IMG/VR virus record: IMGVR_UViG_3300037827_000293
Location: 1-39,255 of that record
From: a virus
Reading direction: 5' to 3' (one strand)
Length of the DNA stretch: 39,255 nucleotides
Under the pieces are notes generated by a model. That model made no database searches. It was not told where the DNA came from and saw nothing but the letters and a program-made list of their open reading frames with translations. Below, piece after piece: positions 1 through 39,255 of this stretch. Every line of letters starts with the position of its first letter. The first letter of the stretch is position 1. A program made the position numbers and the translations under genes.

Positions 1-127
1 CATATCGACATTATTAGTGACGGCCTCGAAATCCTCATACTTCTCTTTCCCAGGCGCAATTTTCTCTTTGTAGCTATTCACAATACGTTGAGCTATTTCT
101 GCGTCCGCTTTCTCTTGAGCTTCACGA
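1..127. repeat. Terminal direct repeat, left copy (contig circularisation overlap)
   Basis: These 127 bases are identical to the last 127 bases of the window (39129-39255). A repeat of exactly 127 nt at contig ends is the usual mark of a circular assembly closed at k=127. It lies inside a coding sequence that reads through the junction in frame, so it is probably not a biological terminal repeat. P22-like phages package circularly permuted headfuls, which assemble as circles. Confidence 0.9.
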
Positions 128-408
128 ACCCACTGATCGCGTTGGCGTGCCAACTCTTCGCTTGTCAATCGCTTAACATCATCTTCCGATAATGACTTAG
201 AGCTTTGAGCTTGACTTGATTGCGGTGCTTGTTGCGCATATTGCGTTTGTTGTTGCCGTTTAAAGCTCTCAACCGCATCATGTTTGGCTCGCCCTACAAT
301 CTCATTTAACTCTGATTGCTTAAATAATCGCTCTTGTGCTTGCTGAGCGGTTTCTTGTACCTGAGCCTGATTAGTATCAGACACGTTATCCATAACACTA
401 TTATCCAT
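1..408 (-). CDS. Scaffold-like protein, N-terminal part (continues at 39128)
   Basis: The reading frame starts at ATG 408-406 behind an AAGGA Shine-Dalgarno, runs off the left edge and resumes at 39128, ending at 38829. The joined gene is 235 aa. The N-terminal half is rich in Gln, Ala, Ser and charged residues with no hydrophobic core, as expected of an extended helical scaffold. It contains an SKSLSEDDVKRLTSEEL segment and a long charged helix. It sits directly upstream of the coat gene, which is where P22 gene 8 (scaffold) lies between portal and coat. The role is inferred from position and composition; I see no diagnostic motif. Its 5' leader carries an unusual tandem structured element (422-575). 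Confidence 0.75.
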   Translation of the reverse strand, partial: MDNSVMDNVSDTNQAQVQETAQQAQERLFKQSELNEIVGRAKHDAVESFKRQQQTQYAQQAPQSSQAQSSKSLSEDDVKRLTSEELARQRDQWVREAQEKADAEIAQRIVNSYKEKIAPGKEKYEDFEAVTNNVDM

Positions 409-421
409 AACAGTTCCTTCT

Positions 422-575
422 AGCTATTTCCCCGCCACGGTAATTCCTCTGCGTATCGAACAGGTCTCGAGCTATTACGCCGCCACGCTAAATAAAATCA
501 TCCCCGCATTACGCACGGGTCTCGTGTGAAAGTTACAGTCCATTGCACCATTTGCGAAATTCACACCCTAAGGGT
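422..575 (-). promoter_or_regulatory. Tandem structured 5' leader of the scaffold/coat operon
   Basis: On the minus strand this non-coding stretch holds two tandem copies of one motif, 523-470 and 468-422. Each begins GAGACC, has a small hairpin (CCCG/CGGG in copy 1, CCTG/CAG(A)GG in copy 2), and ends CGTGGCGG followed by AATAGCT after a short variable spacer. A third stem, GTGTGAA with TTCACAC (560-566 with 524-530), abuts copy 1. A short ACCC-TTA-GGGT hairpin overlaps its far side. The second copy ends a few bases from the scaffold Shine-Dalgarno, so control of translation is plausible. I match it to no named RNA family. The rest of 409-747 holds the repeat at 625-669 and a plus-strand promoter candidate. 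Confidence 0.5.
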
Positions 576-747: not shown

Positions 748-942
748 ATGTTATTATTAGATGGCGTTCAATATTTAGTAGAAAAAGAGGTTTCTGCTCG
801 GTATGGCCTATCCATTCATTGGTTTAGAAAAGCGCGTTATAATGGGAATAGCCCGAAATATCACACACTAAATGGGAAGGTTTATTATAAGGCAGAAAAT
901 GTGGATAAATGGTTCAAAGATAATTTGAAACCAGTTCATTGA
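748..942 (+). CDS. Small HTH_17/AlpA-type DNA-binding protein (excisionase-like)
   Basis: This is a 64-aa protein with a helix-turn-helix at about residues 13-35 (EKEVSARYGLSIHWFRKAR). It is followed by a small wing with NSPKYHTLNGKVYYKAENVDKWF. That layout (HTH, then SPKY-x-LNG-x-VYY, then a VDKWF helix) is typical of MerR-like AlpA/excisionase proteins, which bend DNA or regulate promoters. The SD AAGGA precedes the ATG. It is the only plus-strand gene in the structural half of the genome and has its own promoter candidate and hairpin. No integrase gene is visible, so a true excisionase role is doubtful. A local regulator is more likely. Confidence 0.75.
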   Translation: MLLLDGVQYLVEKEVSARYGLSIHWFRKARYNGNSPKYHTLNGKVYYKAENVDKWFKDNLKPVH

Positions 943-8266: not shown

Positions 8267-8515
8267 TTAAACTGCCTCTTCCACATAAGGAATCAAAGCC
8301 CATCGGAAACAATGTTTCTCGCGTTCAATCACCAATTCCCAGCCGCATCTCTTTAACCAGGCGCGTAATGAGGGTTTCATGGTCTCGCTTTTATTGCTAA
8401 CCTCTGTGATTACTGCCAATTCATGCGACAATAAACCACGTGGATTGTCGAGCAACGCTTGTACAATACGTCTTTGATGCTCGCTCACATTGCTCAATAA
8501 AATATCTAAGCTCAT
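8267..8515 (-). CDS. Small winged-helix-like regulator
   Basis: 82 aa. Residues 12-50 (EHQRRIVQALLDNPRGLLSH, ELAVITEVS) read as an HTH, followed by MKPSLRAWLKRCGWEL as a recognition/wing region. The hydrophobic spacing suits a winged helix that may bind DNA. It follows an AAGGATATTAAA SD and a structured gap containing tRNA-Asn. A regulator of late transcription is possible; the family is not identified. Confidence 0.6.
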   Translation of the reverse strand: MSLDILLSNVSEHQRRIVQALLDNPRGLLSHELAVITEVSNKSETMKPSLRAWLKRCGWELVIEREKHCFRWALIPYVEEAV

Positions 8516-8687: not shown

Positions 8688-8762
8688 TGGCTCTCCTTCT
8701 AGGAATCGAACCTAGGACATACAGATTAACAGTCTGCCGTTCTACCGCTGCACTAAAGGAGG
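8688..8762 (-). tRNA. tRNA-Asn (GTT)
   Basis: Cloverleaf: acceptor CCTCCTT pairs with AAGGAGA except at 1:72, where C faces A. The D-arm holds GCAGCGGTAGAAC. The anticodon stem GCAGA/TCTGT has a G-U at its base and the loop is CTGTTAA (anticodon GTT). The T-arm is CTAGG-TTCGATT-CCTAG. Discriminator G73 suits Asn, and CCA is encoded. It sits in the minus-strand packaging operon between small genes and can read both Asn codons, common in the Asn-rich tail proteins. Confidence 0.85.
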
Positions 8763-10401: not shown

Positions 10402-10487
10402 TGGTGGAGCAAGTTGGAGTCGAACCAACACGGGCTAGCCGACCTCTGAGTTACAGTCAGGTGCTCTTCCTATTAAGCGTTTGCTCC
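10402..10487 (-). tRNA. tRNA-Tyr (GTA)
   Basis: Acceptor GGAGCAA/TTGCTCC is perfect, with A73 and encoded CCA. The anticodon loop is CTGTAAC (GTA) on a stem with a C-A at its base (27:43). A long variable arm is present (around TCGGCTAGCCCG), as required of class II bacterial tRNA-Tyr. The T-arm is GTTGG-TTCGACT-CCAAC. 86 nt including CCA. It lies between a secreted Gly/Ser protein gene and small genes and shares the minus-strand transcript. Like tRNA-Asn, it belongs to the queuosine-type GUN anticodon set. Confidence 0.88.
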
Positions 10488-37455: not shown

Positions 37456-38772
37456 TTAACCTTGAGACAATGGAATAACATAACGCATGGAGTATTCAGG
37501 AACGATTACTGAACCATGAGTTTCGTCATAAATCATGCCTGTCTCGTTTTGACCGAACAGAGAACCGTAGGTCAAACGCATAGACACACCAGTGTCATCG
37601 TCATACTCATTTGCAGTGTCGTAAGGACTTTGTTCTGGTAACTGAGGCATTGCCAAGTAGAACGCATCACCACCCAAAATACCGCCGCACCGGTGAGACT
37701 GAACGCCAAGGATTTGCATTCCAGCCGCGATTGGGTTGTTTAGATTTTGATTTTGTCCACCAGCCCAATTTAATGCTGGAGTAATGTTGATGGTTACAAC
37801 ACCAGAGGCATTGGCCGCAGCGTTAGCAGTCGCACGGAATTGAACCTGGTTAGCACTTGGGAAGTGGCCTATGAAGGTCAAGTAACGCATGTTTGGCTGA
37901 CCAGAAACACCGTCTTGGAAGCTGAACAAGTCACCAGAGAATACCGCACTGGCATCACTAGCAGTCGCACCGCTTACAGTAATTTGTGTTACGTTTTGGC
38001 CAGTGGGGTCGTTAACGCTAACCACAGTCAATGTTTGTTGATTAACACCAGTGTCACCAGATACGTGAATTGGCATTAAGTTTGACTGGTAGTAACTCAC
38101 TAATGGAGTACCGAAGTCCCCAATTTCCCAAGACATTGCGATTTCATCGTTACGATGAGGTACGAATTGGTTTAAACCATTACCCACTACGGCAGGAACT
38201 ACAGTATCAGGAAGGTAAACCTTAATACCCTCAGCAACAGAGCCGTAGTTCTTGAAGAACATGATGGCTTGAGCTAATTGTTGGTAAGAAGTCAAGGCTG
38301 TAGAGCCATTACCGAAGTAACGATATGGCCCTGAAAATGTATTTAAGGTGCCATCTAATTGACTTTGAACCGCAGATGCCCAGTTAAGAGCCACGTTTCC
38401 TTCGACTTGAGTTGACAATTCAGCAATAAAGGATTTTCCGAAAACTCGCATGTAGTCTTCTTCACCTTTCTCTAAGTTAAAGATACGTTGTTGAGAGGTA
38501 ACAGCGAATGAACTGTTGTTAGCCTGGTCACACACCAATTGTTGAACACGTTGAACGGCAGGTTGAAATGAAGCAACCAAACCAGCAACAGTGGTGGCAC
38601 GTGGAGGCAAATCGAAAGTGACAGTCGAGCCTAAGTTGGCCTGAATTTTGTCAAAATCTTTAAATTTTGTATTAGCTGTAGAAATATGACAACATAAGTT
38701 CTGCAACAGCGCTAGTCCTGACCTTTGATAGGTTTGGACGGTTTGTAAAATGTTATTTGGGAAAACAGCCAT
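37456..38772 (-). CDS. Major capsid protein, P22 gp5-like
   Basis: 438 aa (P22 gp5 is 430). MAVFPNNILQTVQTYQRSGLALLQNL, NLGSTVTFDLPPRATTVAGL and RVQQLVCDQANNSSFAVTSQQRIFNLEKGEEDY are the P22 coat family opening. Hydrophobic HK97-like core follows, with YRYFGNGSTALTSYQQLAQAI, then a central region SHRCGGILGGDAFYLAMPQLPEQSPYD and MRLTYGSLFGQNETG. Builds the T=7 shell on scaffold. SD AGGAG lies in a 9-bp stem-loop. Confidence 0.93.
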   Translation of the reverse strand: MAVFPNNILQTVQTYQRSGLALLQNLCCHISTANTKFKDFDKIQANLGSTVTFDLPPRATTVAGLVASFQPAVQRVQQLVCDQANNSSFAVTSQQRIFNLEKGEEDYMRVFGKSFIAELSTQVEGNVALNWASAVQSQLDGTLNTFSGPYRYFGNGSTALTSYQQLAQAIMFFKNYGSVAEGIKVYLPDTVVPAVVGNGLNQFVPHRNDEIAMSWEIGDFGTPLVSYYQSNLMPIHVSGDTGVNQQTLTVVSVNDPTGQNVTQITVSGATASDASAVFSGDLFSFQDGVSGQPNMRYLTFIGHFPSANQVQFRATANAAANASGVVTINITPALNWAGGQNQNLNNPIAAGMQILGVQSHRCGGILGGDAFYLAMPQLPEQSPYDTANEYDDDTGVSMRLTYGSLFGQNETGMIYDETHGSVIVPEYSMRYVIPLSQG

Positions 38773-38781
38773 GTTAGTAAC

Positions 38782-38808
38782 TCCTAACTTTCATCCATTA
38801 AGTTAGGA
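38782..38808 (-). promoter_or_regulatory. Stem-loop sequestering the coat Shine-Dalgarno
   Basis: TCCTAACTT (38808-38800 on the minus strand) pairs perfectly with AAGTTAGGA (38790-38782) around a 9-nt loop. The right arm contains the coat AGGAG (38785-38781), nine bases before ATG 38772. The folded message would hide the site, so scaffold-to-coat ribosome traffic or a protein could open it. Sits between scaffold stop (38829) and coat start. Confidence 0.65.
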
Positions 38809-38828: not shown

Positions 38829-39255
38829 CTATGCCTTATACTTTCTCTTCAAATCCTTCATAGACAGAGTACTACCTGAATCCGTTCCGGTGTTAGAAGG
38901 TTTTTGTTGAGATAAAGGGCTATTGGCATGTTTCATTTGTGAGGTCGATTCGTTTGCTTTGATAGAATCTGACAAACGTTTAATCTCATAAATGGCATCT
39001 TGAGGGTTGTGCGCGCACGTTGACTCTAGCTGATACAGTTTTGTTCTGTTCTTTGCTAGTTCATAAATAACATCATGGGAATTATCCACGTACTCGGCTA
39101 AAAGCTGAACGACATTTGGATAATATCTCATATCGACATTATTAGTGACGGCCTCGAAATCCTCATACTTCTCTTTCCCAGGCGCAATTTTCTCTTTGTA
39201 GCTATTCACAATACGTTGAGCTATTTCTGCGTCCGCTTTCTCTTGAGCTTCACGA
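38829..39255 (-). CDS. Scaffold-like protein, C-terminal part (continues at 1-408)
   Basis: Reads on from the left-edge part. Within the unique circle its 5' end continues at 408. It contains YEDFEAVTNNVDMRYYPNVVQLLAEYVDNS, then CAHNPQDAIYEIKRLSDSIK, and a basic C-terminus (TLSMKDLKRKYKA). A short Lys/Arg-rich C-terminal helix is exactly what P22 scaffold uses to bind coat. The join is in frame across the 127-bp overlap. The coat gene follows by 56 nt. Confidence 0.75.
   Translation of the reverse strand, partial: REAQEKADAEIAQRIVNSYKEKIAPGKEKYEDFEAVTNNVDMRYYPNVVQLLAEYVDNSHDVIYELAKNRTKLYQLESTCAHNPQDAIYEIKRLSDSIKANESTSQMKHANSPLSQQKPSNTGTDSGSTLSMKDLKRKYKA
39129..39255. repeat. Terminal direct repeat, right copy
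   Basis: Identical to bases 1-127. Together they mean a circular 39,128-bp sequence; removing one copy restores the scaffold gene. It has no sign of a cos site. Confidence 0.9.

Follow-up and report, generated by a model that had tools for sequence, protein, structure and literature searches.

What do two adjacent, similar RNA modules do in front of the scaffold and coat genes of a phage, and how do they fold? We looked at this question in the IMG/VR virus record IMGVR_UViG_3300037827_000293, taken over its whole length of 39,255 nucleotides (the window, to which all coordinates refer). An original prediction, made from the letters of this DNA alone, had described a tandem structured RNA at this place. 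In our best reading, the element forms the 5' leader RNA of the scaffold-coat operon and very probably acts in cis to control or enhance translation. Compensatory changes among relatives show the modules to fold as a hairpin plus a pseudoknot.

Two modules adjoin the scaffold Shine-Dalgarno sequence

The pattern GAGACC-N-CGTGGCGG-N-AATAGCT was found exactly twice in the window, at 422-468 and 470-523 on the minus strand, with 0 matches expected in shuffled sequences. The two tandem copies with a shared motif were thus correctly described, as were the stems of their hairpin P1, CCCG/CGGG in module 1 and CCTG/CAG(A)GG, with a bulged A, in module 2. Each module is about 50 nt long, and its tail is not single-stranded: downstream of P1, the helices S1 and S2 make up a small H-type pseudoknot. 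The features of the leader are as follows.

470-523, minus strand: module 1, with the P1 hairpin (516-519/503-506), a linker and the pseudoknot (S1 487-488/479-480, S2 482-484/470-472).
422-468, minus strand: module 2, with the P1 hairpin (461-464/447-451, A448 bulged), S1 (439-440/431-432) and S2 (434-436/422-424).
415-421, minus strand: the scaffold Shine-Dalgarno (SD) sequence, AGAAGGA, which begins immediately past S2 of module 2.

The second copy had been placed beside the scaffold SD, and it does end at 422, with the SD running from 421 to 415. The covariance model (CM) gave 62.4 bits to module 1 (E 2e-15) and 53.8 bits to module 2 (E 5.7e-13); these E-values are approximate, and the model seed includes the window copies. 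In the window clade, a U-rich stretch follows P1 of module 1.

Minimum free energy folding of the window leader alone did not show the fold and was no better than that of shuffles (z=+0.78). It fails to show the fold because pseudoknots are not modelled, and the evidence for the fold is therefore comparative. A coding explanation, the objection foreseen in the original prediction, was rejected, no open reading frame (ORF) of at least 60 amino acids being present in 409-747 on either strand. An open frame spanning both modules in 65 of 101 leaders was likewise set aside, as this is about the chance level for 33 codons in six frames.

Compensatory changes maintain a hairpin and a pseudoknot

We used an alignment of 63 diverse modules (A2), built with MAFFT without structure, and compared it with P1 (4 bp), S1 (2 bp) and S2 (3 bp). 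Helix cells were paired in 92.6% of cases versus 73.3 +/- 1.2% in shuffles, a value that none of 500 shuffles reached, and 143 cells were changed on both sides versus 52.7 in shuffles; these alignment counts include related phages, and the shuffles overstate significance. When the partners were slid, pairing went down to 28-55%. Whole pairs were exchanged without exception among the 63 modules, the outer S1 pair being CG in 34 and GC in 29, and the middle S2 pair GC in 32 and AU in 31. Selection on structure, which had been suggested from a compensated pair in the two P1 stems, is therefore borne out, and covariation in homologues, whose absence had been named as the other objection, turned out to be very strong.

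An all-column covariation scan with average product correction, run on 131 distinct CM-aligned modules, ranked seven pairs highest, namely three of P1, the outer one of S1 and all three of S2. The high rank of S2 is not circular because S2 was absent from the model. Moreover, S2 of module 1 paired completely in 81 of the 82 distinct sequences parsed, and 16 different triplet pairs were represented. Phages whose coats are below 60% identity have a longer module 1 pseudoknot, with S1 being CGG/CCG, GCC/GGC, CCC/GGG, CCG/CGG or CGC/GCG. Since the helices are swapped in many backgrounds, and given the slid controls and the all-column ranking, the evidence for the structure stands beyond the shuffles. 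The helices are kept by compensatory change beyond chance, as in a structured cis-regulatory RNA.

The unpaired positions behave differently from the helices. In the columns of alignment A3, unpaired A4, A59, U63, G73 and A80 are invariant in all 131 modules (A80 in 130 of 130), and G62, G67, A76, C13 and G34 are present at 96-99%. The unpaired core A, A, GU, G, G, A, A is thus kept at 96% or more, and about ten unpaired bases are near-invariant though coat identity drops as low as 42%.

The modules come nearly always in twos and only at the scaffold leader

The original prediction had proposed a search for homologous leaders in related phages, and more than 100 distinct relatives with the leader were found in IMG/VR. 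Exact-pattern scans gave 19, 30 and 7 contigs. A looser pattern gave 56 stretches with 55 new loci, 49 of them at 770-985 nt before a coat gene, 4 at contig ends carrying the leader and the scaffold start, and 2 due to chance; coat identity in this set went down to 42%. A third pattern brought 13 stretches, 11 real and 2 due to chance. Pattern matches in L204, L245, L258 and L260 were rejected as chance, and a scan of genome contigs with a too loose pattern gave a single real case among 69 (L065, a metagenome-assembled genome labelled Bacteroidetes), the rest looking like chance. Relatives were also sampled by their coat protein (372 stretches, with 80 retained for each query), which avoids selection on the motif, and their upstream regions were then inspected.

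Among the leaders gathered by coat, 119 of 121 had two module matches and 2 had one. The 24 whole records carried modules at the scaffold leader only, with two matches in 22 and one in two, and all non-chance matches of the pattern scans precede scaffold and coat. No match better than E 6.8 was obtained from 284 kb of negative-control sequence, among which were three annotated podoviruses whose coats are related. Unlike the phages described here, the annotated Vibrio and Shewanella relatives have the scaffold directly after the portal, with no module.

In most leaders, 0-5 nt separate the two modules; a minority have a spacer of about 30 nt, and three have one of 52-57 nt. In all 101 distinct leaders, an SD-like motif begins 0-8 nt past module 2 (2 nt in 55 of them), and the start codon comes 5-19 nt after this motif. 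The element thus keeps a constant site beside the start of one downstream gene, as a cis-regulatory RNA does, and its location, fixed geometry and uniqueness point to scaffold translation. Leader divergence follows that of the scaffold beyond that of the coat (partial r 0.45 vs 0.05), a result that linkage alone could yield. Four findings go beyond the original prediction, namely the pseudoknot, the strict rule of two copies, the constant distance to the SD and the spread over phages with coats at 42% identity.

Comparison with known RNA families

No known RNA family had been recognized in this leader, and our searches agree. With Rfam 15 at gathering thresholds, only tRNAs were detected in the window; the leader alone, searched to E 10, gave only sub-threshold chance matches, and eight relatives gave no match to the module. 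Their sole match was an unrelated int-alpA RNA, above threshold in L172 at 8307-8371 (plus strand). A blastn comparison with phage and plasmid records gave nothing, and a literature search for phage leader pseudoknots, thin in its coverage of subscription papers and preprints, found no description. We rate the tandem hairpin-pseudoknot as a new RNA family, though one whose general kind, the structured cis-regulatory leader, is known.

Could each module be an aptamer for a metabolite or an ion? In such a tandem riboswitch, the two copies would steepen the response and the folded state would block the adjacent SD. Tandem aptamers are known (glycine), and the size, the pseudoknot, the near-invariant unpaired core and the freely swapping helices of the modules resemble aptamers. 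They share with preQ1/SAM-II-type riboswitches a hairpin/pseudoknot build of about 45-50 nt, an unpaired core that does not vary and a site at the SD; unlike in these, the SD is beside the pseudoknot and not inside it, two copies stand in tandem, the context is head assembly, and Rfam, including its aptamer classes, gives no match. In the collections scanned, the modules were found only before phage scaffold genes and never before a metabolic gene. They also have no conserved strand that would sequester the SD as an expression platform. We consider a riboswitch rather improbable.

Type III antitoxin RNAs also have tandem small pseudoknots (PMC4627078), and this raises the question of other RNA functions, namely a self-cleaving ribozyme, a put-like RNA antiterminator, a nuclease-resistant element or a ToxI-type RNA decoy. 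Besides this likeness, the U-rich stretch of the window clade mentioned above would fit such functions. However, none of them needs a fixed contact of 0-8 nt with the scaffold SD, and the ribozyme consensus models of Rfam had no match. ToxI/CptI RNAs resemble the leader in that pseudoknots, each some tens of nucleotides long, are repeated in tandem. Their units are near-identical and lie beside a ToxN-like gene, whereas here two units that differ in sequence within each leader, each with an extra hairpin, stand in the 5' leader of a structural gene. PADLOC and Pfam scans of window proteins, which covered part of the ORFs, gave no toxin beside the leader. These other functions, taken together, are very improbable.

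The upstream stem and other elements around the modules

In the window clade, a further stem-loop precedes the modules.

524-566, minus strand: P0, a 5' stem-loop of the window clade only, GTGTGAA (560-566) pairing with TTCACAC (524-530) around the hairpin TGCA-AUGGAC-TGTA (534-547).

This is the 7-bp stem that had been noticed beside the first copy. Its outer stem has at least 6 bp in 82% of 34 relatives versus 26% of shuffles, with the compensated variants GTGTGAA/TTCACAC, ATGGATG/CATCCAT, CGGAAATA/TATTTCCG and GTGAGCA/TGCTCAC. The loop of the P0 hairpin is an ANGGA of the CsrA/Rsm type, and a hairpin of at least 4 bp with a GGA loop is present in 94% of these 34 window-clade relatives versus 13% of shuffles.

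A second hairpin is found at the coat start. With 9 bp, TCCTAACTT-AATGGATGA-AAGTTAGGA (38782-38808, minus strand) buries the coat SD and has an AUGGA loop. Most relatives keep it, divergent ones with a single mismatch, and its loop is often (A/U)GGA; a stem of at least 6 bp over the SD was found in 65% versus 27% of shuffles. As the coat SD lies within a conserved hairpin, head-gene translation looks structurally controlled at both starts. The GGA loops of P0 and of the coat start would also suit a CsrA/Rsm-type control, in which a dimer would form a bridge from the P0 loop (ANGGA) to the GGA within the scaffold SD. This combination is present in the window clade and is not general among relatives. 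In divergent relatives, P0 is missing or replaced by another pseudoknot while the modules stay, and such a control accounts for P0, not for the modules. We hold it to be as improbable as the antitoxin-like and related functions.

By eye, the intermodule spacer resembles a further H-type pseudoknot in L176, L178, L193, L194, L195, L189 and L201 (in L194, UUCGCA-GUCA-UGCGAA-UUGGAUAAA-UGAC). A pseudoknot, also read by eye, takes the place of the 5' stem upstream of module 1 in L202, L208, L214 and L224 (in L224, CCGA-UCUA-UCGG-GGAUAAA-UAGA). Some leaders thus seem, on reading by eye, to consist of at least three pseudoknots stacked in a row. Near-consensus sigma-70 promoters (TTGACA, 16-17 nt, then TATGAT, TATATT or TAAAAT) lie upstream of module 1 in L185, L181, L172, L175 and L226, with a predicted start about 33-44 nt before module 1.

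No SD-complementary strand is conserved: the longest stretch in the modules that could pair with the SD octamer averages 4.38 nt, versus 4.60 nt in shuffles. A built-in switch is therefore unlikely, and occupancy by a partner or direct contact with the ribosome is more likely. Such contact is at the heart of a leader that recruits ribosomes or enhances translation, whose stacked pseudoknots would touch the 30S subunit, or shield the mRNA 5' end, and give high head-gene expression without any regulator. It would agree with an unpaired core that is invariant across deeply divergent phages, with the fixed spacing to the SD and the start codon without an anti-SD strand, and with a stacking array running from P0 or a pseudoknot through the two modules to the SD. 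The near-consensus promoters 25-45 nt upstream in several lineages would place the element at the mRNA 5' end; however, promoter enrichment upstream in the whole set is not above shuffles (17% vs 13%), with few strong cases and none in the window. The exact number of two modules is also left unexplained, and we know of no precedent for a tandem pseudoknot ribosome recruiter in bacteria. Such a leader is unlikely, if less so than a riboswitch.

Genome setting

The window is a circle, as indicated by a 127-bp terminal direct repeat (1-127 and 39129-39255). The scaffold ORF is split at the window ends because the circle was opened inside the scaffold gene.

1-408, minus strand: scaffold gene, first 136 codons, with the ATG at 408-406; it crosses the contig joint to 38829 and encodes 235 aa in the circle.
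37456-38772, minus strand: P22-like major coat protein of 438 aa, the gene next after the scaffold (tblastn).

The modules had been placed ahead of scaffold and coat, and the gene order agrees with this. By tblastn, the coat has about 23% identity to annotated coat or major head proteins of Vibrio and Shewanella podoviruses. The minus strand carries P22-like head genes, namely an Sf6-type small terminase, the large terminase, the portal, a head-closure protein, the scaffold and the coat, and the 340-nt gap ahead of the scaffold ATG holds the tandem modules. The scaffold is a conserved family across 80 relatives, with identity down to about 41%. Its structure model (mean pLDDT 74) gave weak matches only, the best to the P22 scaffold (E 0.19), and no RNA-binding fold can therefore be claimed. 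The label "scaffold" is a tentative one, drawn from the position of the gene, the predicted helical character of its product and a weak resemblance to structures of the P22 scaffold.

Just upstream of the leader, positions 620-670 carry a unit of about 22 bp (AATATTAGGTTTGCTGAATT...) repeated in tandem. An ORF of 64 aa at 748-942 (plus strand), on the opposite strand between late genes, may by eye encode an AlpA-like DNA-binding protein; its Pfam and PHROG comparison gave no match. Genes for tRNA-Asn and tRNA-Tyr are located at 8691-8762 and 10405-10487 (minus strand). A host search by tblastn with the coat in 369 Gammaproteobacteria genomes (the class of a Pseudomonas) found none, an empty result that is uninformative.

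Probable control of scaffold translation

The element probably sets the translation strength of the head genes. Autogenous control by a head-assembly protein appears to be the likeliest single mechanism, at somewhat below an even chance. It is favoured because the scaffold is the regulated gene, because the coat start is also structurally controlled, and because of the reported P22 precedent. P22 has long been reported to regulate its scaffold after transcription, by autogenous feedback of the scaffold protein. To our knowledge, no RNA target has been defined for this regulation, nor has a tandem pseudoknot like that of this leader been described as the P22 operator. The head-gene order is the same (terminase, portal, scaffold, coat), the scaffold gene lies directly downstream of the modules, the coat is P22-like, and control would here also act on scaffold translation. 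With module 2 held folded, the 30S subunit would be unable to use the adjacent SD. An effector acting on both modules, perhaps cooperatively, would lower scaffold synthesis and set the scaffold:coat ratio, the likeliest effector being unassembled scaffolding protein (or coat) in an autogenous feedback. The operators of ribosomal proteins S15 and S4 are alike in having a pseudoknot directly upstream of the start site and a proposed occupancy by protein; here, unlike in these, no rRNA mimicry was identified, the modules are in tandem, and the gene is a phage gene.

Several points weigh against autogenous control. The unpaired core is near-invariant while scaffold identity falls to about 41%, and an invariant partner, such as the ribosome or a metabolite, would fit this equally well or better. 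The literature search gave nothing usable on P22 scaffold autoregulation. Furthermore, we infer both repression as the direction of control and the identity of the effector. The near-invariant core argues for an unchanging partner and keeps ribosome recruitment and a riboswitch alive. The leader could then be dedicated to the translation of the head genes either as a phage analogue of a compact pseudoknot element that recruits ribosomes or as a tandem aptamer whose ligand does not vary. In that case it would be a new class of RNA, working by a mechanism of its own, and not an operator for a phage protein. We give this reading a modest chance, below that of autogenous control.

It has long been asked how phages adjust the timing of scaffold and coat and the ratio between them, and a sharply bounded RNA with mutable helices, present in hundreds of related phages, makes this question testable by point mutation and compensation. 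The element would be a new RNA family, present nearly always in two copies, always against the scaffold SD, and kept while coats diverged to about 42% identity.
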